DNA of 64,000 nucleotides from Neovahlkampfia damariscottae (taxonomy: Eukaryota > Heterolobosea > Selenaionea > Neovahlkampfiida > Neovahlkampfiidae): assembly GCA_016618085.1 (NCBI GenBank), contig JABLTG010000044.1:49559-113558 (forward strand), in the 5' to 3' direction. Each line of letters begins with the position of its first letter. The first letter of the stretch is position 1. This document shows positions 2,309 to 64,000 of the stretch, in pieces. The notes beneath the pieces are model-generated. The model saw only the letters and a program-made list of their open reading frames with translations. It had not been told where the DNA came from and ran no database searches. The position numbers and the translations under genes are program-made.

Positions 2309-3581
2309 GTTGTGAAAAGATTCACTCTTTCAACTCCGAGATTGAGTTTCTAAAAATAACAGATCTAATAATCCAATGAGAAACGTTCAAAATCAGTTTG
2401 TAACAAAACAAAATACAAACCTTTTCAATGTGATTTTTATTGTTGGAAAAAGAAAAATAAAAAGAAACCTAGATGATTGGATTGAAAAAGGCGCCAAAAG
2501 ATTAAATTTTTGCAATAAAACAAACAACAACTTTGTTAATTTTCTGAATGTTCTCCTTGGAAAATGTTTTTTAGTTATAGGTATTCTTCAAGAAGAACAA
2601 CAGGAAACCATAAGAAATCACAAATTTTTTTATATTCTTAAAGAAAGTTGATACGTTCAGAATGACCAACATTCAAAACTGTAAAACGGAATCACCAACA
2701 CTTTTCAATTCAATTTTTATTTTCAACCAAATTCACACCAAGTAACACTGATATCTAACTAATGAAACAATTTCAGATGTTATTTCTTTCAAATCCTCAT
2801 AAGTTGCAAAAAATTAGAGATTTTTATTTTTGTCAACCTGTTAGCTTCCAGAATAATAGTTCATTTTATATGATAATATATTGTGCAATTTTTAATATAT
2901 TTACAAAACATCTGGACAGGTTATTGCTTTCAAATCCTCAGAATCTTAAAAAATTACTATTTTTATTTTTTTGTAATGTTTTCTTGATTTTATAGGTGAC
3001 CTCAGACTAATATTCCAAAAAAATTAAATTAAAACGTTTATTCTTTCTTTTTTTTTGATTATTATGTTGTTTTGCCTCAAGACCTGTAATGAATAAATCA
3101 AATTTTATAATCTAACGAAATGAAGGAGAGGTAAGTTTCAAATGAGTATCGAATTATGTTAAAAGCTAGGATTATTCAGATCTTATCTGAAAAACCTATT
3201 CGAAAAAAAATTAGTTTTCTTTTGACATGTCATGAACATTTTTGACAACATCCATGTATCTTTTTCTTTGGAGAGTAGTTTTGCATCAGGATTCAAGTAG
3301 TCTATTTTTTCTTGAAGCAAGTAATGTTTTTGTTCACCTATAATTTCTGATAAATTTGTAATACTGAAGGTGGTCGGAATAATTTAAAGCTATTTATCTT
3401 GTGAAACAAACCAATATTTATATGAATCTGCTGTTCAAAGTAATCAAATGAGATGTGTAATTCAGATTTGAGCAAAATTGTCCCTTTTCATGTTTTGTTT
3501 TTGTAACGTTTTTTTTATGGATCTGATTGGATGAATTTATCAACCAATCATTTTATAATTTTTTACCTTAATGAAGTGAAC
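2309..3581. other. Intergenic stretch with repeats and coding relics
   Basis: No convincing gene is seen in this 1.27 kb. Two open frames on the plus strand (about 2376..2651 and 2762..2995) have no recognisable motif, skewed composition and no spliced partner, so I do not call them. On the minus strand a frame over roughly 3400..3215 has gene-like codons (including a stretch reading LSEIIGEQKHYLLQEKIDYL) but is closed by a stop just upstream and lacks a start. It looks like a fragment of a lost gene. A direct repeat pair is described separately. The last 40 nt hold the CCAAT box of the Myb gene. Confidence 0.5.
2779..2985. repeat. Degenerate direct repeat pair, about 60 nt per copy
   Basis: The segment near 2779..2840 begins TTATTTCTTTCAAATCCTCA. 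The segment near 2923..2985 begins TTATTGCTTTCAAATCCTCA. The copies share the following AAAAAATTA and ATTTTTATTTTT blocks and lie about 144 nt apart. They are diverged, and no terminal inverted repeat or target duplication is visible, so I call a simple local duplication and not a transposon. Confidence 0.55.
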
Positions 3582-3983
3582 ATGACCAGTTGGACTGAAT
3601 TAGAAGATGAAAAATTAACAAAAATAGTTGAAAGTATGAGTTGTAAAGAATGTGTAAATATCTACAGACCAGATTGTACATGTGAAGTTTTCAAGAAAAA
3701 ACAGACTTGGGAAGAAATAGCAAAACAAATGAAAAGTAGAACTTATGGTGCATGTCAAGGAAGATGGTGTTCTCAATTAGATCCTTTGGTTCATAAAGAA
3801 AGTTGGACAAAAGAAGAAGAGGAATTGTTAATGAAAATTTATTCAAAGAAAGAATACAACACTTGGGTGAAAAGAGCTCTAAAACTAATGGAAGTTAATG
3901 AAGGTAAAAGAAGAAATGGAGGTGATGTTGCATCAAAATACTTTCAACTTTCAAAAAAAAACAAAAAACGAAAAAGAGAATAA
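3582..3983 (+). CDS. Two-repeat Myb/SANT DNA-binding protein
   Basis: This single-exon gene encodes about 133 residues, a likely nuclear DNA-binding protein. Repeat 1 starts MTSWTELEDEKLTKIV and ends with WEEIAKQM...GRWCSQLDP. Repeat 2 starts ESWTKEEEELLMKIY and ends DVASKYFQL. Both show the regularly spaced aromatic residues of Myb helices. Repeat 1 carries a Cys-rich insertion (CKECVNIYRPDCTCEVF) between its first and second helices, which is unusual and could bind metal. The C terminus is a basic tail (KKNKKRKRE) that can act as a nuclear localisation signal. An in-frame ATG at 3531 exists, but the CCAAT box at 3544..3548 lies between it and 3582, so 3582 is the better start. No activation domain is seen and target genes are unknown. 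Confidence 0.8.
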   Translation: MTSWTELEDEKLTKIVESMSCKECVNIYRPDCTCEVFKKKQTWEEIAKQMKSRTYGACQGRWCSQLDPLVHKESWTKEEEELLMKIYSKKEYNTWVKRALKLMEVNEGKRRNGGDVASKYFQLSKKNKKRKRE

Positions 3984-4077
3984 AAAAATAAAAATTCATG
4001 AAAAAAACTTCAAAAAAAAATAAAAGTTGAAGGCTAAACTTTCATTGGTTAAATCTAAAACAACAAAAATCAACTGT

Positions 4078-6834
4078 ATGGAGTGGTATGAGGAGGTGAA
4101 GTTACAATTTCCGTATCTTTCTGGTCACTCAATGGTTCATTTTTCAAATCACAAAATTAATTATATTTTTATTTTTGGAGGACAAAAGGATACTGTACAT
4201 CAAAATTCACTTTACATTTATGACTTGGGTTTTAAAAAAAAAAAATAATAACATTTTTCAAAGATACTTTTAAATTTCATGAAGCAAGTTCATTTGAAAC
4301 CAAACAAAGAATAAATCATTCAAACACTATTTTTAAGCCAAATTTGAAAAAATTTCAACCAGAACCAAGAGAACGTCAAGGATTCACAAAAATAGATTTG
4401 GCTGGAAAACAATCGATAATGCTTTTTGGAGGTATTGGTCCTGCTAATCAAATTGGTGTTAGTTCAAAATTAAAATTTTTTGAGGAGTTATGGGAACTTG
4501 AACTTCCACATGAAAGATTTGAAAAAACTGTTTGGTCAAAACCGAAAGTAGACGGATCAAAGCAACCAAAAGGAAGATATGACCACACATTTTTAGGATA
4601 TGCTCCGCATAAAGTTGTACTATTTGGTGGATTTGGTGAGGAGAAAAGAGCATTAAATGATCTTTGGATTTTAAATTTAAAAACAGACAAACTGGGACAA
4701 AACACTGCAAAATGGAAATGTATATCAGAATCAGAGATAAATTATGGAACCGATTTAACAAAACCTGCTCCGAGATTTCAACATTCTTCTGTTTCAATGA
4801 AAGACAAAGTTTACATTTTTGGAGGAAAAAATGAACATGGAATATTGAATGATTTGTGGTATTTACAAGTTTCAAACTATACTTGGACAAGAATTAAACA
4901 CAGTTCTTTGACACCAACTCCTCGTTTTGGACATATGAGCACTATTATCTTTGATACTTTATTTATTTTTGGAGGATTTTCAAATGTTTTAGATGAATAT
5001 GAATCACATTACTCTAATACAGTTTTTAGTTATGATATTGGTAAAAAAAAAAAAAAAATGTTAAAAATTTTAAAGACGAAAATCGTTGGTTCAGCATGAA
5101 GATGAAAGAAAAAAATAAAATATTTCCAGATGGAAGAATAGGGTTTGGATCATGTGTTGTATCAGATCATATTTATATTTATGGTGGATTGGCTTATTCT
5201 AATGAGTTTGATGATTTTGGAAGAGTTTGTGATTTTTGGACGTTGAATACACATTTATTACATGAAGAAAGAAAAATTGGAAATTATACAATCATTAAGA
5301 AATTAGATTTTGGAAGTTTTTCTGATGTTTTTAAAGTTCGAGAAAAAAATACAAAAGATATATATGCGTTGAAAAGAATTCATGTAAATTGGAAAATGAA
5401 CTCCAATCAATTTATCGTACCAGATTTTGATGTTTTAGGTGAAACATATATTCCAAAGACACTTCAACATAAGAATGTTTTGTCCATCAAGACTTCATTT
5501 TTAGCAAAAAAAGGAGATTCAGTTTTTGTATCTTTGATAATGCCATTTTGTGATTTAGGTGATTTTTTGAAAGTTTTTCATAAAAATAACTTGACAGAAG
5601 TGGTATGTTATTTCTAATTTTCACCTTTGTTATTCAGGAAATTTTGTATTTTATCTTGCAGTTATTGGACGGAATGAATTATATTCATTCACAAAATGTG
5701 ATCCATCGTGACATCAAACCAAAAAATATATTGGTAATTTCTGAAAGAACTCATGATAATATTGTTGTTCCAATTGCAAAAATAGCTGATTTTGGTTTGG
5801 CCAAGAATGTGACCACTAACAAAGCAAAGACAGTTCTTGGAACTCAGATTTATATGGCACCCGAAGTAGAAAAACGAATTGGAAGTTATTCATTTTCTGC
5901 TGATGTATATTCACTTGGAGTTTTGATTTTCTTCATGTTTACCAAACAAGAAATAAATTTCAAAATCAAAAAAAATTCAAATTTGATTCACGAATTACAA
6001 AACTCAGATTTCAAATACAAGAATCAATATGTGGGTATTATCAAAGATATGCTCAATGAAAAACCTGAAAAGAGACCAAGTTGTTTTGAATGTCACGAGA
6101 TTTTTAAAAAGAACTTTTTGAAATTATTGGACACTGCAATTGGAAATCCAAATTCTTTAAATTATATTCCTTTGGAGGCTTTAAAATTAATTTCAACAAA
6201 AGGCTTCATCAGCAAAGGAATTGTCAATATTGCCACACCAACAACACCTGATTCATTTTCTCCTTTACCTTTATTGAAATTAGGTTCTAAAAATGATATG
6301 TGGTCTAGAAGTTTTCGAAAGAAGGATTCAAGTCGAGTATTGAAGGAACTTGATTTTGATTCGGACTCTCCTGGTCCAAGAGAAATCAATGATGACTATG
6401 ATGATTCTGGAATGTTTGATAGTTTATTCATTTGGTTGTGTAATTTACAAATGATTGATTATGAAGAACTTTTTATTGAACATGGTTATGATGATTTGAA
6501 TATTGTTAAGGATATGACTGTTTCAGATTTAAAGAATATTGGAATTCAAGAAAAAGACGATTTGAATGTGTTGGAACTCTCCATAGCTGAACTAAGAGAA
6601 TATTTAGATCCAAATGATATGTCTTTTGAAGAGTTTGAAATTAGATGTTGGTTGAATTTCAATTCTTTGGAAGTGTATGAAACAATCATTCTTGAAAAGT
6701 TCTCAAGTCTGAGAGAAATTTCTGAACTTTCATTGGAAGATTTAAAAAAATTGGAAATCACAAAAAGAGGTCACTTGAAGAAATTTGAACAAAAAATTCA
6801 AGAATTAAAACAAAAATTTTCACAATCAAAATAA
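4078..6834 (+). CDS. Kelch-repeat protein kinase with tandem SAM domains
   Basis: Four exons fuse an N-terminal kelch propeller to a Ser/Thr kinase and two C-terminal SAM-like domains. Six kelch strands are visible (IFIFGGQKD, IMLFGGIGP, VVLFGGFGE, VYIFGGKNE, LFIFGGFSN, IYIYGGLAY). The kinase has a Gly loop (DFGSFSDVF), the ATP lysine in YALKRI, the catalytic loop HRDIKPKN, DFGLA, and the substrate-loop motif YMAPE, so it should be active. The SAM segments are around VSDLKNIGIQEKDDL and LEDLKKLEITKRGHL and could mediate oligomerisation. Short introns fall near 4230..4262, 5042..5073 and 5591..5637, and each restores the frame. The start is ATG 4078, with ATTGGT at 4044..4049. Kelch-kinase proteins are expanded in amoebae, but the substrate is unknown. 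Confidence 0.88.
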
Positions 6835-40293: not shown

Positions 40294-40366
40294 GGGCTTC
40301 TAGCTCAGTTGGTAGAGCGCCTGCTTTGCAAGCAGGAGGTCTAGGGTTCGATTCCCTAGTGGTCCA
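40294..40366 (+). tRNA. tRNA-Ala (anticodon TGC)
   Basis: The 73-nt sequence folds into a cloverleaf. D arm GCTCAGTTGGTAGAGC, anticodon stem CCTGC/GCAGG with loop TTTGCAA (anticodon TGC at 40327..40329), and T arm TAGGG/CCCTA with loop TTCGATT. The acceptor stem GGGCTTC/GTGGTCC has two wobble pairs and one T-T mismatch at the sixth pair, which is unusual. The identity element G3-T70 wobble pair of alanine tRNAs is present. Internal A and B boxes are intact and no intron is seen. Confidence 0.93.
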
Positions 40367-47781: not shown

Positions 47782-47863
47782 TGCATACGGTGAGATTCGA
47801 ACTCACGACCGCCGTAGCGACTAGAACCTGGATCTAGCGTCTTCACCACTCGACCACGTATGC
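47782..47863 (-). tRNA. tRNA-Leu (anticodon CAG) with C33
   Basis: The acceptor stem GCATACG/CGTATGC is perfect. D arm TGGTCGAGTGGTGAAGACG, anticodon stem CTAGA/TCTAG with loop TCCAGGT, a long variable arm (TCGCTACGGCGG) and T arm GTGAG/CTCAC with loop TTCGAAT follow. The long arm marks a class II tRNA (Leu or Ser), and the anticodon CAG with G37 matches eukaryotic tRNA-Leu. Position 33, nearly always T, is C here because the two bases before the anticodon read TC and not CT. Confidence 0.88.
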
Positions 47864-56876: not shown

Positions 56877-59800
56877 TTACAACTTCAATGAAAATCTTTG
56901 ACTTCTTCTATTTCCTCCAGTTGTTTGTCTTTTTTGTAAATCTTGGATTTTCAAATCTTTGTCTTTGATAATATTTGTTTTGATTCTGATTTCTTCATCT
57001 TTGAACATTAATTTCTTTTCAACTTGTTCAACTTTTTGATCATATCTTGCAATTTCACCTTGTATCTTTTTTAATTTCACTTGAGCTGCAAAATTCTTCT
57101 TTTGAGTAACTTTTAATCTTTCTTTTATTTCCATTTTTTCAGTGGTTGTATTTTGTAAAATTGAACTCAATTCTGAATAATCATTCTTCATTGCAGAAAA
57201 TTGTTCATTCCAATCTTTCATAAATTCCATTGTTTCAGCTCTTTTTCTTTCATTTTCAATTTGTGCTTCTTTTGCTTTTTTTTCAATTTCATTTTCTTCT
57301 TTCATTCCTGGACTGGATGGATTTGAATTTCTTTTTCCAAGGTTAAAGTTTCTCAAGAACTTTCTTTTATCTTCATCATTTGATTCGCTAGTTGGTGAAC
57401 TAGGACCTGCTGATTTAGATGATCTTTTCAAAATATTTTTCCAACCACCAGAACTTCTTTTATCAAGCATATCTACTTTTTGTTTGTCTATTTTTTTGAC
57501 AAATCCTTTCCAAGCAAATTTTCCAAGTAATTTTTTTTGCTTTTTTGGTTCCTCTTCATTACCTCTTGGACTTGTTTCATCAGGTGATTCAACTGAAATT
57601 TCATCATCATTTGATTCATTTTTCCCTTGGGATTGTAATATTTCTTCTTTGGAAATATCAATTTCCGATTTTAATTCATCTGGTTTTATCATTGAAATTT
57701 CTTCAGAACTTTCATCACCTCTTGGTGTCAATGTACTTCTTGTTTCATAATCAATGTTCAACATTTCTTTTAATTGTTGTTTTTGATATTCAATCATCTC
57801 TTTTGCATCATACAATTCTTCAAACAAATCCTCTTTTTCATACAAAATCTTTTCCAGTTTTTTTTCATAAAGAAACATTCGATCTTCGTATTCAGTCACT
57901 TGTTTCACATACTCTTCATTCATTTCTGTCAAATCATTCTCATGTTCTGTTTCGAGTTTTGAATTTTCCAAATCTTTCAATTGAATTTGTTGAGTTAATT
58001 CTTCAATTTGTTGGTTAAACTGAAGGAGTATTTTTTCATTTTTAAGTTTCTCTTGAGTTAAATCATCAATTTGATCATTTAATTGTGAAATAAAATCTTG
58101 ATTTGATTTTTTTTCTTGCTGAAAACTTAAACTTTTCAATTTAAGCTCTTCATTTTCTTGTGACAAGCTGTCAAGATTTTCAGTCAATTTTTGAATCTTT
58201 TCTGAGAGATCTGAAATTTTTGATGTTAAATTTTGTTTTTCAGTTGTCAAGTACTTTTTGCTTGATTGAGATTCTTGAATGTCTTTTTCTAAATCCTGAA
58301 TTTTCATTTGTTGTTCTTTAATTTTTTCAACAGAATTTTTCAATAATTCTTCATTTTCTTGTAATTTTGAAGAATTTTGTTCAATTTCAGTTATTTTTTT
58401 TGACATTTGATTTTTAAAGTCTTCTTCCAATTTCAAAAAACGTTCAGAAGATAATTTGTTTTCATTTTGTAAAGATGTACATTTTTGATTCCATTCTGAT
58501 ATTTCAACATCTTTCTTATGTAAATTAGATTCAAATTTTGAATTATTTTCAGTTAATTGATTCAAATCTTCAATATTTTGATTCAATTTTGTTGATAAAG
58601 TTACAACTTCAAGATTCTTGCTCTCTATTTCTTTAATTTTTCTGTTCAATTCATTTTTGAGTTGATCAAGGTTCTCTTGATATTGTAAACTTTTTTCAGT
58701 TAATTCTTCAAGTTCTTTTTGGAGTTGTTGTTGCTTTAAATTTTGATTTGAAATCTCAAGATTTGATTGGACTAATTGTTGTTCATTTTCGAATAGTTTT
58801 TGCTCTAATGAATCATTTCTATCATCTTCTTCTTTTAATTTATTACTTAAATCTAATTTTTCTTGATTTAAATTATTAACACTCAATTCAAGTTTTTGAT
58901 TCATGATTTGAAGATTGTCAAATTCTTTTTGTTTTGATTTGATCATTATTTCATTTTTCTGAATTTCTAAACTTAAATTGGATTCAATAGTTTCAATTTT
59001 TTGGTTTTTCTCATCAATCTCTTTTTTCAATTTGTCAACTTTATTGGATTCTTCAGATGCTTCTTTTTCAAATGATTTATCAAAATTCTCTTTTTCTGCC
59101 ATCAATTTATTGAGTTTTTCTTGTTGTGATTTCAATTGATTTTGAAGGGAAAATTCTAAAAGAGATTTTTGATTCAATTCTTCTTCTAGTGTGTTTTTTT
59201 CAACTTGAGCATCATTTAAGGATTTTTCTAACCCATCTTTAAGTTGTTTTAATTGATCTAATGAGCTTTTGTTTTCAACAATTTCCACTGATAAATTTTC
59301 ATTGGTGATTTCTAAACTCTTTTTTTCATTGTTAAGTTTGACAATAGATTCATGAAGTTGTTTGGTTTCTCTTTGGTTATTTTCATCAAAAATCTTTTTT
59401 TCTTCTTTTAATTCTTCAATTTTTGATGTTAAATTTTTCTTGTCAGAAGTCAATTGATGTATTATAGTATCTGATGATCCACTTTGATTTTGAGCATTTT
59501 GAAGTTCTTGTTCTAACTGAGCAAATGCAACTTCAAGTTCATCTTTTTCTACATTGCTAGAAATCATGATTTCTTCTAATTCTTTACTTCTTTCTTTCAT
59601 TTGATTCATTGATTTTTCAAAATATTGAATTTCTGAAATTAATTGAGAAAGGGTGGTTTCAAATGAACTTTCTTTCTCTTTAAGGATTAGTTTGTATTCA
59701 ATGACTTCTTGTTGGTATTTTAATGACGATTCTTTCAACTTTTGATTTTCAACTTTGATCTCATCCAATGTGATTTGAATGTTCGATTTTTCTTGAGATG

Positions 59801-61031
59801 TTTGTTGAATAGTTTCTTGAATTTTAGAAACTTCTTGGGTTAATTTGAGTTTTTCATCATTAAATTGATTCAGTTTCATTTCTAAATTAAATTTCTCTTC
59901 TTTTAACTTTTCACTATTTTGTTCTAAAATTAAATTTTGATTCTTCAAATCATTCAATGTTGACTTTGTTTTTTCAAGATCTTTTTCAGTCTCTGTATTC
60001 TTTTCAAATGCTTCAACATTTTTCGAAGTCAATTTTTGAATTTGATTCATCAACTCTTTGTTTTGTTTATTTAGTCTTGAAATTTCTTCATCCATTGTAG
60101 AAACTGTTTCTGATGATGCTTCATAATTTGAGTTCTTTTTATTTGATTCTTTCAATAAATTTTCAAGTTTTTCATTCGAATTTTCCATTTTTCCAATTTT
60201 TTCTTGCAGTTCTTCTGTCAACAAATCTGACAAATTTTTTTCATTTTCAAAAATTTTAATTTCTTGGTTTTTTTGTTGTAAGAGTTCTTTATTTGATGAT
60301 ACTTCTGCTTCTAATCTGATTTTTTCTTCTTTTTGTTGATTAAAAGCATTTTCAAAAAAAGTTTTTTCATCAAAAATTTTTTGTGTTAATTTTGTTGAGT
60401 TTTCTGAAGTTTGAATCAAATCTATGATTTTTTCATTTAATTTATTGATCTCTGTCGAAAAATTAGCCTTTTCTGTTGCCAAGTCATTCACTGAAATCAT
60501 GTACAAAGAATTTTCTTGTTTGAGTTCTTCATTCACTTTTGTCAGTGATTCAACCAAAGCAGACATTTTATTTTCTTCATTTTTATGATATTCTATGTCC
60601 TGTTTCAATTGTTGATTTTGGGTATTTACAGCTAAAATTTCCTCTTTTACGTTTTCAACTTGTTGATCAAAATTTTCACTTGAAAAAGTTTTTTTTTGAA
60701 AAGAGTGAATTTCATCCAAATACTTATCAATATTTTCTTTTGATTTTACAACTTCTTCTTTCAAATTATCGTTTTCATTTTTTAATTTTTTAACTTGAAC
60801 ATTCGAAGATGAATTTAATTTTTCAATTTCTAATTCATGAGATTCCTTCAGTTTCTCAAAATCTTCTTTGTTTTTTGATTCCATCAGTTTCATTTTTTCT
60901 TCATATTCTTTAATTTCACTTTCCAGTTTTTTGATTTTTTCTGATTTTTTATTGATTTTTTCGGTTTGTAGTAAACTGTTCTTTTCATCCTCTTCATTTG
61001 GAAGAGATTCTTTGCTACCACAACATCCCAT
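56877..61031 (-). CDS. 1,384-residue coiled-coil protein with acylation N terminus
   Basis: A single exon of 4.15 kb encodes 1,384 residues. It starts MGCCGSKESLPNEEDEK: Gly2 followed by Cys3 and Cys4 is the pattern for N-myristoylation plus palmitoylation, so the N terminus should be membrane-bound. From residue 25 to about 1120 the protein is almost unbroken heptad coiled coil, rich in Gln, Glu, Lys, Asn and Leu. A disordered Ser/Pro region (SSKSAGPSSPTSES) interrupts it before a final coil and a basic tail (NRRSQRFSLKL). No motor or GRIP domain is visible. It resembles golgin-like tethers in form only. The lack of introns over 4 kb is notable, as is the divergent CCAAT at 61053 and 61069 upstream. 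Confidence 0.85.
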   Translation of the reverse strand: MGCCGSKESLPNEEDEKNSLLQTEKINKKSEKIKKLESEIKEYEEKMKLMESKNKEDFEKLKESHELEIEKLNSSSNVQVKKLKNENDNLKEEVVKSKENIDKYLDEIHSFQKKTFSSENFDQQVENVKEEILAVNTQNQQLKQDIEYHKNEENKMSALVESLTKVNEELKQENSLYMISVNDLATEKANFSTEINKLNEKIIDLIQTSENSTKLTQKIFDEKTFFENAFNQQKEEKIRLEAEVSSNKELLQQKNQEIKIFENEKNLSDLLTEELQEKIGKMENSNEKLENLLKESNKKNSNYEASSETVSTMDEEISRLNKQNKELMNQIQKLTSKNVEAFEKNTETEKDLEKTKSTLNDLKNQNLILEQNSEKLKEEKFNLEMKLNQFNDEKLKLTQEVSKIQETIQQTSQEKSNIQITLDEIKVENQKLKESSLKYQQEVIEYKLILKEKESSFETTLSQLISEIQYFEKSMNQMKERSKELEEIMISSNVEKDELEVAFAQLEQELQNAQNQSGSSDTIIHQLTSDKKNLTSKIEELKEEKKIFDENNQRETKQLHESIVKLNNEKKSLEITNENLSVEIVENKSSLDQLKQLKDGLEKSLNDAQVEKNTLEEELNQKSLLEFSLQNQLKSQQEKLNKLMAEKENFDKSFEKEASEESNKVDKLKKEIDEKNQKIETIESNLSLEIQKNEIMIKSKQKEFDNLQIMNQKLELSVNNLNQEKLDLSNKLKEEDDRNDSLEQKLFENEQQLVQSNLEISNQNLKQQQLQKELEELTEKSLQYQENLDQLKNELNRKIKEIESKNLEVVTLSTKLNQNIEDLNQLTENNSKFESNLHKKDVEISEWNQKCTSLQNENKLSSERFLKLEEDFKNQMSKKITEIEQNSSKLQENEELLKNSVEKIKEQQMKIQDLEKDIQESQSSKKYLTTEKQNLTSKISDLSEKIQKLTENLDSLSQENEELKLKSLSFQQEKKSNQDFISQLNDQIDDLTQEKLKNEKILLQFNQQIEELTQQIQLKDLENSKLETEHENDLTEMNEEYVKQVTEYEDRMFLYEKKLEKILYEKEDLFEELYDAKEMIEYQKQQLKEMLNIDYETRSTLTPRGDESSEEISMIKPDELKSEIDISKEEILQSQGKNESNDDEISVESPDETSPRGNEEEPKKQKKLLGKFAWKGFVKKIDKQKVDMLDKRSSGGWKNILKRSSKSAGPSSPTSESNDEDKRKFLRNFNLGKRNSNPSSPGMKEENEIEKKAKEAQIENERKRAETMEFMKDWNEQFSAMKNDYSELSSILQNTTTEKMEIKERLKVTQKKNFAAQVKLKKIQGEIARYDQKVEQVEKKLMFKDEEIRIKTNIIKDKDLKIQDLQKRQTTGGNRRSQRFSLKL

Positions 61032-61473
61032 TGTGGTGAAAAAGAATTAGTTTCCAATGAAAAAATATCCAATCAAAATGTTTCCAAGTTCATTCACCTT
61101 TCGTTGAGTTTTAACAATTTCTTCACATAATTCTCAGCGTATTTTTCTGGAGAGTAAATAAAGAGCAATAAAGTAACAACTAATTTGACAAATACATCTG
61201 GTAACTCTGGTATCTCTAGTCTTGGTGTCTATATCTGAACTTTATCTTCCTGTTCAGGTTAACAAACGACTTAAGTCTTTCTAGCTCCGAATCAAGCCAA
61301 GTAAATTCTTCACTCAACTCGTTTTCATCTCTTGAATTGGTTGAACCTATAAAACTCGCATTATCTTGAATAATTTTATTAATAACCAATGATTAATAAT
61401 TAGATATTTATATATTCTCATGTCTTATTGGTGGAGTTTTTCAAATCCAATCATTTTGATTTGTTGACAGAAA
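61032..61473. other. Intergenic region between divergent genes
   Basis: This 440-nt spacer lies between two divergently transcribed genes. CCAAT/ATTGG boxes sit at both ends (61053..61057 and 61069..61073 on the left, 61427..61431 and 61447..61451 on the right). The middle (about 61100..61380) shows no gene, RNA or repeat I can support. Confidence 0.5.
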
Positions 61474-63099
61474 ATGAAGTGTATTCAGTTCTTTTTACTT
61501 TTGTTTGTGGTTTTTGCTTCAGCCCACAGTTCAAGTGAAACTAAAATTCAATTCACCTCCAAAATCGGAAATGCTTGCTTGTACACCAGAGAATGTTCAA
61601 AAGACCAATACTGCTCAGGAAACCCAGCTGAAAAAATTTACGGAAACTGTGAAAAAAGATATTCAGGTTTCTGTCAAGGTGGTCATCAATGTGATCATTC
61701 AAAATCCATGGGTTGTATTTTAACAAATGGTAAAAAAAAATAGTCCATTAAGTCTCTACCAGTCAATTTTGGAAGATGCCAAAAAATTGATGCTCCACGA
61801 ACAGTTTCTGAAGATAACTCCGAACTCAATATGTTTATTCCACATCTTACTAAAGAAGAATATGATGCCATTCCATATCCAAGTAATCAAGACTTAATGG
61901 ATGTTGAAGGTGCTGGTTCAACTTGTGGAAATGAACATCATGATTTTGGTTATGATTTAATGAATGAAATTAAAAATAGTTCATCAAAAGATATTAAAGC
62001 AAATTGTTGGACAACTGGATCATGTGATGAACCTGCTGTTAGAAACACGTATACTTCTGCTCCAAATGTAATATTAAGAGTTCAATGGATAGTATTCAAA
62101 TGTGGAACTTGGTATCAAAATGCAGCTGCAAAAATTGCTGAAGCTACTTATGACTTAAATCAAAGATTTACAACAGCTGGATTTACTTTCAATTCATATC
62201 TCAGTTTATACCCATGTACTGGATCAACTGGAAATCAAGATTATAATACTATTTCAGATTCAGAAGCTACAAATGCTGTAACTTTAGAAAGAGGTTCAAA
62301 TTGGAGAAATGAAGGTTCTTTGATGGTTGTTGCAGGAACACCAACAGAATCGTTATTAAATGGATTCTTTTATTTTCCATGTAGCAGAGCTCCATGTGGA
62401 AGTGGATTTATGAACACAAGAGTTGTAGCAAAAGGTTATACCGTAATTTTTTATTTTTTATTTTAACAAATTTTGATAGACACTTTCACATGAACTTGGT
62501 CATGGTTTTGGACTTCAACATACATTCCACGGTGTTTCAGAAATATCATCGTGTTCTTCTTGCCGTGAAACTGTTGCTTCTGACGATACAGGTGATTTTT
62601 GTGCTGATACACCTCCTGTTGTCAAAAATTGGGATTGTAAATCACCAATCTCAGCAAATGATCCATGTAATACCCAAAGAACTCAATGGGATCCAAATCC
62701 TTATAAAAACATCATGTCATATGGAAACTGTAGAGATGTCTTTTCTGAGTGCCAAAAACGAAGAGTTAGATGTTGTAAGATCAAAAAAGAATTCAATTTT
62801 TATTAGATTACTCAAAGTCTGGATCATGGTTAAAGAAAGATGCAACTGCTCAAACAAGTTCAGTTCCAACAGTAAGTCATGGTTTTTCATACACCACTTG
62901 TTTCGGTGTCTCTTCAACTTCATCATCTGTTTGTTCAGGGAATGGAAAGTGTGTTTCAAAAGATGTTTGTCAATGTTATGAATTTTGGATTGGAAGCAAA
63001 TGCTCCACTTTTAGTATCTTTGGTGCTGGAAATTCAATCCAAGTGAACATCATTGGTACAATTGTATTTATGCTTTCTATTTTTGCAATTATTTTGTAA
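61474..63099 (+). CDS. Membrane-anchored M43 (pappalysin-like) metallopeptidase
   Basis: Four exons encode about 505 residues. A signal peptide (MKCIQFFLLLFVVFASAHS) precedes a Cys-rich domain (CLYTRECSKDQYCSG, CEKRYSGFCQGGHQCDH). The catalytic domain has the zinc motif HELGHGFGLQHTFHG, then CADTPPV, and the Met-turn NIMSYGNC, which is the M43 family pattern. An EGF-like module (CSGNGKCVSKDVCQC) and a hydrophobic C terminus (IIGTIVFMLSIFAIIL) follow, so the enzyme is probably cell-surface anchored by a TM or GPI signal. Introns are 33 nt near 61731..61773, 37 nt near 62442..62480 and 32 nt near 62774..62805. The zinc motif is at the start of exon 3. It may degrade extracellular or phagosomal protein. 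Confidence 0.88.
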
Positions 63100-63399
63100 A
63101 TATTAATAAATTCTTTTGGACATTGTTAAAAATACTCATAGAAGCAATGGTACTCTAAGAATACTCATATAGTAGTTTAAAAATAGCTGATTAGTTCATC
63201 CAGTCATTTTCTTTTTTTAACAGTTAACGATAGATGAAGTATTCCATTTTTGCACACCATTTTTGTTTGTTTGTGTTCACATACGCGCTTACATTGGAAA
63301 AAAGATATATTTTAAATTCTTAAATAGAATCTTTTTTATATCTTTGTATAATTTTCCAAAACTTGTAAATAGTACATATATTATCAATTATAGTAAACA

Positions 63400-63522
63400 A
63401 GACCAATACTGTACAGGAAATCCAGAAAAAAAATTGTGAAAAAAGATATTCAGGTTTCTGTCAAGGAAGTCATCGATGTGATCATTCAAAATCCATGGGT
63501 TGTATTTTCACAAACGGCCAAT
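63400..63522 (+). pseudogene. Truncated duplicate of the M43 peptidase first exon
   Basis: About 120 nt repeat the end of exon 1 of the peptidase 1.8 kb upstream (61602..61732) at roughly 85-90% identity, including AAAAAAGATATTCAGGTTTC and GATCATTCAAAATCCATGGG. A gap removes the bases around the GNPAEKIYGNC codons and shifts the frame. No signal peptide, donor site or later exons remain. It lies directly between the peptidase and the Fanzor-like gene. Confidence 0.8.
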
Positions 63523-63610
63523 GAATTGATGGTTATCAACATCAACAACAGAAGTGATAAAAAAGTGAAAACTTGAAGAAACAAAAAGTTCAACAAAAGA
63601 AACAGGAAAT

Positions 63611-64000
63611 ATGAAATCAACATATAAACAAGGAAAAGATTCGTATCCTTTTTGGTGGACTAAAGAAAAAGAAGACATGCTACAAGTGAAAAGTATACCT
63701 TCAAGTTCTTCTTCAGTTGACAAGAATATTTGTTGGACAAAAAAGTTGGTAGAACAATCTTCATTAACAGAAGGTGTTTTATTTTCATCAAAAGATGTTC
63801 CAAAAGAAAACAAACAAGTTTCACATAAAACTGGTTTATCAAAAAAACAACTTGATACAGATGAAATTATTCAATCAAGAAAAATTCTTTTAAAACCAAC
63901 AAGTGAACAAAAGAAAAAAATACAAGAATGGATGAGAATTACTCGATTCGTTTACAATTTAACTCATCATTTTGTTGAAGATCTTGGATAGGATGCAAAT
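63611..64000 (+). CDS. Fanzor/TnpB-like protein, N-terminal part
   Basis: The frame from ATG 63611 has a variable 100-residue N terminus (MKSTYKQGKDSYPFWWTKEK) and then SRKILLKPTSEQKKKIQEWM followed by RITRFVYNLTHHFVED. That is the classic start of TnpB and Fanzor proteins (R-K-[IL]-x-L-x-P-T-x-x-Q, then R-x-x-Y-N), which precedes the WED and RuvC regions. Fanzors are eukaryotic RNA-guided DNA nucleases derived from bacterial transposons and occur in protists and giant viruses. The catalytic part lies past the window. A TAG occurs at 63989..63991. It may mean decay, or a GT donor just before it (GTTGAAG near 63972) opens an intron. Activity cannot be judged. Confidence 0.62.

Follow-up and report, generated by a model that had tools for sequence, protein, structure and literature searches.

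The right edge of the window, a stretch of 64,000 nucleotides from Neovahlkampfia damariscottae, carries an open frame that resembles the beginning of a TnpB or Fanzor nuclease and includes an unusual N-terminal extension with a YPFWW motif. The locus raises the question of what kind of gene begins there and how the extension came about. We consider it very probable that the element at the right end of the window is a dead member of a multicopy Fanzor2 family, and that the conserved N-terminal extension of its protein arose by overprinting and was later released.

The Fanzor2 copy at the contig end

Contig C246 (113,558 bp) physically ends at position 64000 of the window, which precludes the proposed extension to the right, and positions 63513-64000 hold the left end plus roughly the initial quarter of a Fanzor2 element. 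The left end itself, ACGGCCAATGAATTGATGGTTAT, covers 24 bp of the forward strand (63513-63536, with the start at 63513 or 63514) and is 95.8% identical to element positions 5-28. Left ends of this type, with single-base variants, were present at 15 of the 16 other left boundaries listed, the exception being locus L044. The 5' part of the element then continues after an internal deletion up to the contig end (63535-64000, forward strand) and shares 95.05% identity over 465 columns with the copy on contig C144. The deletion comprises 183 bp near the 5' end, corresponding to element positions 29-211.

The forward-strand open frame at 63569-63991 comprises 140 codons and encodes RKILLKPTSEQKKKIQEW..RFVYN, the segment that had been read as a TnpB/Fanzor-like start in the preliminary description. 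A TGA (63566-63568) precedes the frame and a TAG (63989-63991) terminates it. In the profile search that had been proposed as a check, the TnpB-type domain HTH_OrfB_IS605 (PF12323), the start of the TnpB/Fanzor core, was matched at residues 103-130 (63875-63958, forward strand; E 2.8e-7). The score of 30.4 bits exceeded the Pfam cut-off of 21, hence the match of the window frame goes beyond chance. The YPFWW motif lies at 63644-63658 on the forward strand. Its second W corresponds to the first of the two tryptophans that are invariant in the N-terminal extension of Fanzor2, as placed against relatives via an alignment of the sister copy L031. The second conserved tryptophan, in the motif NICW, is encoded 26 codons further on (63734-63736, forward strand), according to the translation aligned with the same sister copy.

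The copy in the window is a dead pseudogene cut off by the contig end, as evident from the internal deletion, the TGA before the frame and the TAG after it. The initial description was correct in recognizing a Fanzor at the right edge, but the element starts at 63513/63514 and not at 63611, and its gene is dead. That the window contains the start of a live gene, with an intact Fanzor concealed only by the contig end, as the 140 open codons and the 95% DNA identity to other copies might indicate, is hardly credible in view of the two stop codons and of a deletion that took out the first methionine and the N-terminal motif of the fuller copies. The TAG could be an assembly error, as it lies no more than 12 bases from the contig end; such an error would account for the TAG at most, and neither the deletion nor the TGA is an assembly error.

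The insertion site is visible on the left flank. A host gene for an M43-like metallopeptidase with the motif HELGHGFGLQH was located on the forward strand at 61468-63099 (approximate limits taken from the open reading frames, which apparently represent several exons), with a PF05572 match at 62480-62803 (E 6.4e-7). A piece of this gene is duplicated at 63399-63517 on the forward strand, with 84.6% identity over 130 columns to 61601-61730, and stops at the left end of the element; the broken duplicate of host DNA that had been suspected at the flank is thus real. The duplicate ends with ..ACAAACGG, and the parent gene reads ..ACAAATGG at the corresponding place. The element is inserted within the duplicated metallopeptidase piece, and the parent gene is the source of that fragment; the empty-site comparison was based on this diverged parent gene only. 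An Rfam scan of the window revealed nothing apart from two tRNA genes (40294-40366, forward strand; 47782-47863, reverse strand). The window also contains a reverse-strand frame of 1389 codons (56877-61046) that by eye resembles a long coiled coil.

Two Fanzor2 families in the genome

The proposal that the gene belongs to a mobile element agrees with its occurrence as a multicopy family with defined ends. In the genome (20.4 Mb in 307 contigs), the N-terminal frame of the window matched at least 67 places, fragments included, and a DNA search, in which 40 of 196 candidates were scored, yielded at least 47 places. The TNB domain was found at no fewer than 81 places, 79 of them above the cut-off, a count that covers fragments and both Fanzor2 families of the genome. 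Among these 81 places, 22 begin at most 500 bases from a contig start, and five of the 22 share base 56 as their starting point. This crowding at contig starts indicates that assembly breaks fall within Fanzor2 copies.

The near full-length reference for the window's family (family 1) is locus L013 on contig C144, with a length of about 1.87 kb from the left end ACGGC[CT]AATG to the right end GATAGCGG, the latter situated 8 bp past the stop codon. The trinucleotide CGG is present at both ends (ACGGC..GATAGCGG), which is compatible with a short crossover, and no inverted repeats were noticed at the ends of this family. Because the L013 copy is frameshifted, natural open frames served as search queries. 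L013 and L014 read ALDPGVRTF, the DPG signature of RuvC, and L013 yielded a TNB match (PF07282) with an E-value of 3.4e-15. RuvC and zinc ribbon, which the preliminary description expected further to the right, were therefore both encountered in other genome copies, the window copy ending upstream of them. Together with the HTH of the window copy, the DPG signature and the TNB zinc finger of the other copies substantiate the assignment to the Fanzor/TnpB family. Judged by its sequence, the window family is a Fanzor2-type TnpB with presumed RNA-guided cleavage activity.

Ten distinct family 1 copies, L013 and nine others (12 locus lines), share the N-terminus MSKQLKLDSFWKEK; they were retrieved with a DNA pattern that itself fixes the first residues. 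The related proteins P0007 and P0008 start with MSKQL[TK]LDSFL and diverge from family 1 in the residues that follow. We take MSKQLKLDSFW, or more generally MSKQL[KT]LDSF[WL], to be a putative motif resembling a PCNA-interacting box. Of the literature searched, one paper contains both Fanzor and PCNA, a review on AlphaFold 3.

Family 1 is devoid of tnpA in the assembled sequence, where all six resolvase places belong to the second family, and all frames of the family 1 element were searched without detecting a TnpA relic (best E 0.14). RNA structure at its right end was not in excess (z -0.40 for 90 nt and -0.85 for 130 nt). No Rfam guide RNA matched L011-L014 at the gathering threshold, and across 15 sources Rfam returned only a tRNA and, in a control element, a Transposase-1 RNA. 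Some family 1 copies have internal deletions in common while retaining the 3' part: one is shared by L024-L027, and its right breakpoint recurs at the contig end of L028; another is shared by copies on the contigs C236, C8, C234, C22 and C245. The shared deletions suggest non-autonomous derivatives that moved.

The second Fanzor2 family of the genome (family 2) carries the IS607 transposase TnpA, a serine recombinase (PF00239, E 2.7e-19). In locus L011 the TnpA frame extends over 2419-3147 and the Fanzor frame over 2450-3133 and 3137-4348 with one stop between the two parts. The TnpA ATG (2446) and the Fanzor ATG (2456) are located 10 nt apart, hence the N-terminal part of the Fanzor lies inside tnpA. 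The family 2 motifs PWW and SWF align with PFWW and ICW of the window family. Both frames were complete at none of the six TnpA places in the genome, several of which are cut by contig ends. Mobilization of family 1 by the family 2 TnpA is not supported, as the ends of the two families differ.

Further observations concern individual sequences. The right end of family 2 (L011 4324-4413) is predicted to fold strongly (-34.5 kcal/mol, z -6.28) and represents a candidate guide RNA. The proteins P0250 and P0330 each combine a resolvase with an HTH_OrfB domain; P0250 runs from the TnpA frame into the Fanzor frame, by a frameshift, a fusion or an assembly error. A EukProt host gene model (P0283; L048 1919-2737) joins a sirtuin to a Fanzor2 fragment, either as a host fusion or as a gene-model artefact.

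Overlap between the extension and tnpA

Relatives were collected from viral contigs with the DPG motif as the sole pattern (17 loci from 23 stretches) and from a genome collection with a similar motif, which yielded 307 relatives, the best 80 of which were kept, all cyanobacterial by title. Full-length tblastn queries that include the extension served to confirm the candidates and to rank these 80, which may favour intact extensions. No relative emerged from a first viral scan that used the core of family 2, and a scan with the family 2 TnpA yielded the single locus L069.

Ninety-seven Fanzor/TnpB open reading frames (L052-L149) were evaluated. TnpA was located nearby in 92 cases and overlapped in 86, in 72 of them by at least 300 nt, and wherever the overlap reached 100 nt the frame offset was +1 (84 of 84). 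When the TnpA frame was at least 540 nt long, the overlap amounted to 450 nt or more in 55 of 61 loci; it was shorter despite a long tnpA in L058, L086, L113, L131, L140 and L145. A pattern search for P-x-W had no match in 12 of the 97 frames, mostly short ones. The Fanzor ATG follows the tnpA ATG by 4-22 nt in 23 of the 59 loci listed, all cyanobacterial (by 13 nt in the Calothrix PCC 7103 copies L125 and L128), and the first Fanzor ATG lies at least 64 nt downstream of the tnpA ATG in 10 of 11 viral-contig loci; these distances say little, since at several loci tnpA does not start at an ATG close to the beginning of the frame.

Twelve IS607 elements from plasmid records with a TnpB lacking DPG served as controls; they were a non-random choice from the listed matches, with pathogens left out. 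Their annotated tnpA/tnpB overlap ranged from -39 to +29 nt and reached a maximum of 184 nt when all upstream open codons were counted. Stops (1-23) interrupted the +1 frame of tnpA in 12/12 controls, a long overlap occurred in 0/12, and tnpB was in the +1 frame relative to tnpA in eight. Locus L150, from a Nostoc plasmid, belongs to the overlapping lineage but has decayed. It encodes an intact TnpA of 195 residues, yet its +1 frame contains five stops and a decayed motif, which shows that TnpA alone fails to keep the frame open.

The second frame is conserved beyond the demands of the TnpA frame in the cyanobacterial and viral-contig loci and in L011; the window copy has no tnpA. Across 33 non-redundant overlaps (of 60), synonymous shuffles predicted 141 stops in the +1 frame and none was observed, compared with 431 observed and 460 predicted stops in the +2 frame. 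As the overlaps were picked for being open, the overlap counts weigh more than this stop test. Third positions of TnpA differed at 0.311 per site versus 0.475 at third positions of the C-terminal part (49 pairs). Fourfold sites differed at 776 of 2845 in the overlap versus 2317 of 4793 in the C-terminal part (47 pairs, each locus being used in at most two). Permutation of the TnpA-synonymous changes lowered the BLOSUM similarity of the Fanzor frame in 40 of the 47 pairs (mean z 1.33; z negative in 7) and would add 43 stops where 0 were seen. The first tryptophan requires the codon pair NTG-GNN in tnpA. Given the TnpA protein and its codon usage, the probability of retention by chance in 33 loci was 10^-22.5 for the first and 10^-25.3 for the second tryptophan, with the nearer SW taken for L063. 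Both tryptophans were invariant in 49/49 Fanzor2/pro-Fanzor proteins of the chosen alignment (A3), which comprised no window-family copy. The extension with YPFWW, which had not been recognized at first, is a conserved Fanzor2 feature of probably unusual origin.

Structure models provide a further view of the extension. In the cyanobacterial protein P0118 most of it was modelled with low confidence and is predicted to be disordered, with a helix (residues 95-105) and a strand (135-139) at the two tryptophans, where mean pLDDT rose up to 83 and 67, respectively. In P0007, a relative of the window family, the blocks within residues 51-100 reached pLDDT values of 74-80, apart from a single drop to 52. 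The solved mimivirus Fanzor2 9b0l was the top match of the fold search for both models, with Z tied with TnpB rows. Its alignments begin at residue 89 of P0118 and 48 of P0007, those of four TnpB chains near the top at 165-167 and 121-123; such ranges only state where an alignment begins and ends. For the extension the fold lists contained no other folds, which says little as the nuclease core fills them.

Of 50 loci with an intact tnpA, 45 place the two tryptophans 39 codons apart, as do 18 of 25 with a broken one. Eukaryotic Fanzor2 proteins with a spacing of 39 are P0242, P0243, P0256 and P0265. Among 233 Fanzor-like proteins from the searches, 151 were without the motif pair by pattern, many of them fragments, and at least 43 had a spacing of 39, an undercount caused by a script that takes the first pair met (P0043 and P0064 also have 39). 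Seven full-length loci were missed by the script (L125, L127, L128, L134, L137, L139 and L146). Proteins near the window family have spacings of 25-30, and the window copy has 26. A tree was built from 375 core columns of 72 sequences. Among the overlapping sequences it contained, with a support of 99, a clade of 15 tips, of which 14 were labelled as relaxed in spacing and one is a Pandoravirus protein; the family 1 copy L014 was placed inside this clade beside P0001. The root is tentative because the classic TnpB of L. salivarius falls inside the ingroup. P0079, P0094, P0288 and P0293, with spacings of 27-32, were located outside the clade, and release from the overlap seems therefore to have occurred more than once; a single release was not borne out. 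Absence of tnpA is demonstrated for family 1 of this genome only, and the spacing suggests the same for the relaxed-spacing metagenome proteins.

Two other explanations of the overlap have to be weighed. The +1 frame might be open merely as a result of tnpA codon usage, with translation of TnpB/Fanzor starting past tnpA as annotated and the extension being no real part of the protein. The Plectonema protein P0100 of locus L070 (391 aa) fits this explanation, as it begins at a TTG 19 nt past the tnpA stop in a frame that stays open over 561 codons, and so does the predicted disorder of most of the P0118 extension. We nevertheless regard it as very unlikely, given the lack of stops against the expected number, the constrained fourfold sites and the retention of both tryptophans, as well as the interrupted +1 frames of all controls and of L150 despite its intact TnpA. 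The motif is also kept in the tnpA-less window family and in relaxed-spacing proteins, and the solved mimivirus Fanzor2 aligns with both models from within the extension. Alternatively, overprinting may have proceeded in the reverse direction, with the extension as an older separate domain that was later overlapped by tnpA. The insecure rooting of the tree leaves room for this order of events, which would also be in line with the extension of relaxed-spacing, presumably tnpA-less proteins, but it appears improbable: the 12 IS607 elements possess full-length TnpA and no such extension, so that tnpA is unlikely to be the newcomer, and overlapping loci mostly have a spacing of 39, with variation in the other sequences.

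Origin of the extension and known systems

The comparison of these elements points to an overprinting of tnpA by the nuclease gene. In IS607 elements outside the pro-Fanzor/Fanzor2 lineage, tnpB mostly begins in the +1 frame near the 3' end of tnpA (8 of 12 examined). Within the lineage the start of tnpB appears to have shifted upstream until the +1 frame traversed most of tnpA, which would have added about 100-200 residues with two tryptophan anchors. A single message may yield both proteins: the start codons observed are often 4-22 nt apart, and translation could proceed by leaky scanning in eukaryotes and by coupled or internal initiation in cyanobacteria. Such close start codons would couple the dose of the nuclease to that of the transposase. 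In the window family tnpA would then have been lost and the extension freed of the overlap, with an altered spacing and both tryptophans retained, as these probably dock on the nuclease core according to the structure prediction and the solved relative. The nuclease presumably acts like TnpB, with an RNA from the right end guiding a cut at the empty or sister site and thus favouring retention of the element. Cutting of the empty or sister site in favour of retention is described for TnpB in the part of the literature available to us (PMC10432273).

It is probable, with less assurance than for the reading given at the outset, that the overprinted nested dual-coding gene is common to cyanobacterial, giant-virus-like and eukaryotic elements, that more than one eukaryotic escape, including that of the window family, took place with the tryptophan anchors kept, and that the window family gained the PCNA-binding-like MSKQLKLDSFW and a basic stretch. 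To our knowledge, it is rare for a same-strand overlap of about 200 codons to persist from bacteria to eukaryotes. If true, the proposed history explains the origin of part of a genome-editing enzyme family, the step from an overlapping to a free element can be read from the 39-codon spacing, and P0100 shows that a nuclease of this kind may be listed in databases with its N-terminus missing.

The Fanzor2 and pro-Fanzor families are known, and the new part is the YPFWW extension, whose counterpart in relatives is nested in tnpA. Fanzors acquired N-terminal extensions according to the sections seen of PMC10432273, and the serine recombinase and TnpB genes of IS607 elements are described as overlapping or separate, with no such length given, in the available text of PMC9956272. 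The word 'overlap' has no occurrence in the main texts, as far as accessible, of PMC10711439 (Yoon et al. 2023) and PMC3627910 (Bao and Jurka 2013). The nested overlap is unreported in the accessible portions of the literature searched, which included PMC9956272, PMC11061315 and PMC10432273 with subscription titles mostly outside, and it may be in print elsewhere.

Among known systems, the Fanzor2 proteins of IS607-like elements resemble the present ones in the HTH, the DPG RuvC signature, the TNB domain and, apparently, ends without inverted repeats, as far as the available text of PMC3627910 and PMC10711439 goes; the IS607 serine recombinase accompanies family 2, whereas the window family has no TnpA. 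The cyanobacterial pro-Fanzors (PMC10711439, seen in part) possess the same extension with the same two tryptophans, which at most of the loci examined is encoded in the +1 frame within tnpA. Unlike the window family, they have for the most part retained this overlap. The mimivirus Fanzor2 9b0l (TnpB-like protein L79) contains by sequence, in the region of residues 53-124, the counterpart ISKWIPTPKK..NSWYEH without P-x-W. In classic IS607 TnpA/TnpB pairs tnpA is followed by tnpB, in the +1 frame in 8/12 controls as in the overlapping lineage, but these pairs differ from that lineage in their short annotated overlap (-39 to +29 nt) and in the stops that interrupt the +1 frame of tnpA in every control.
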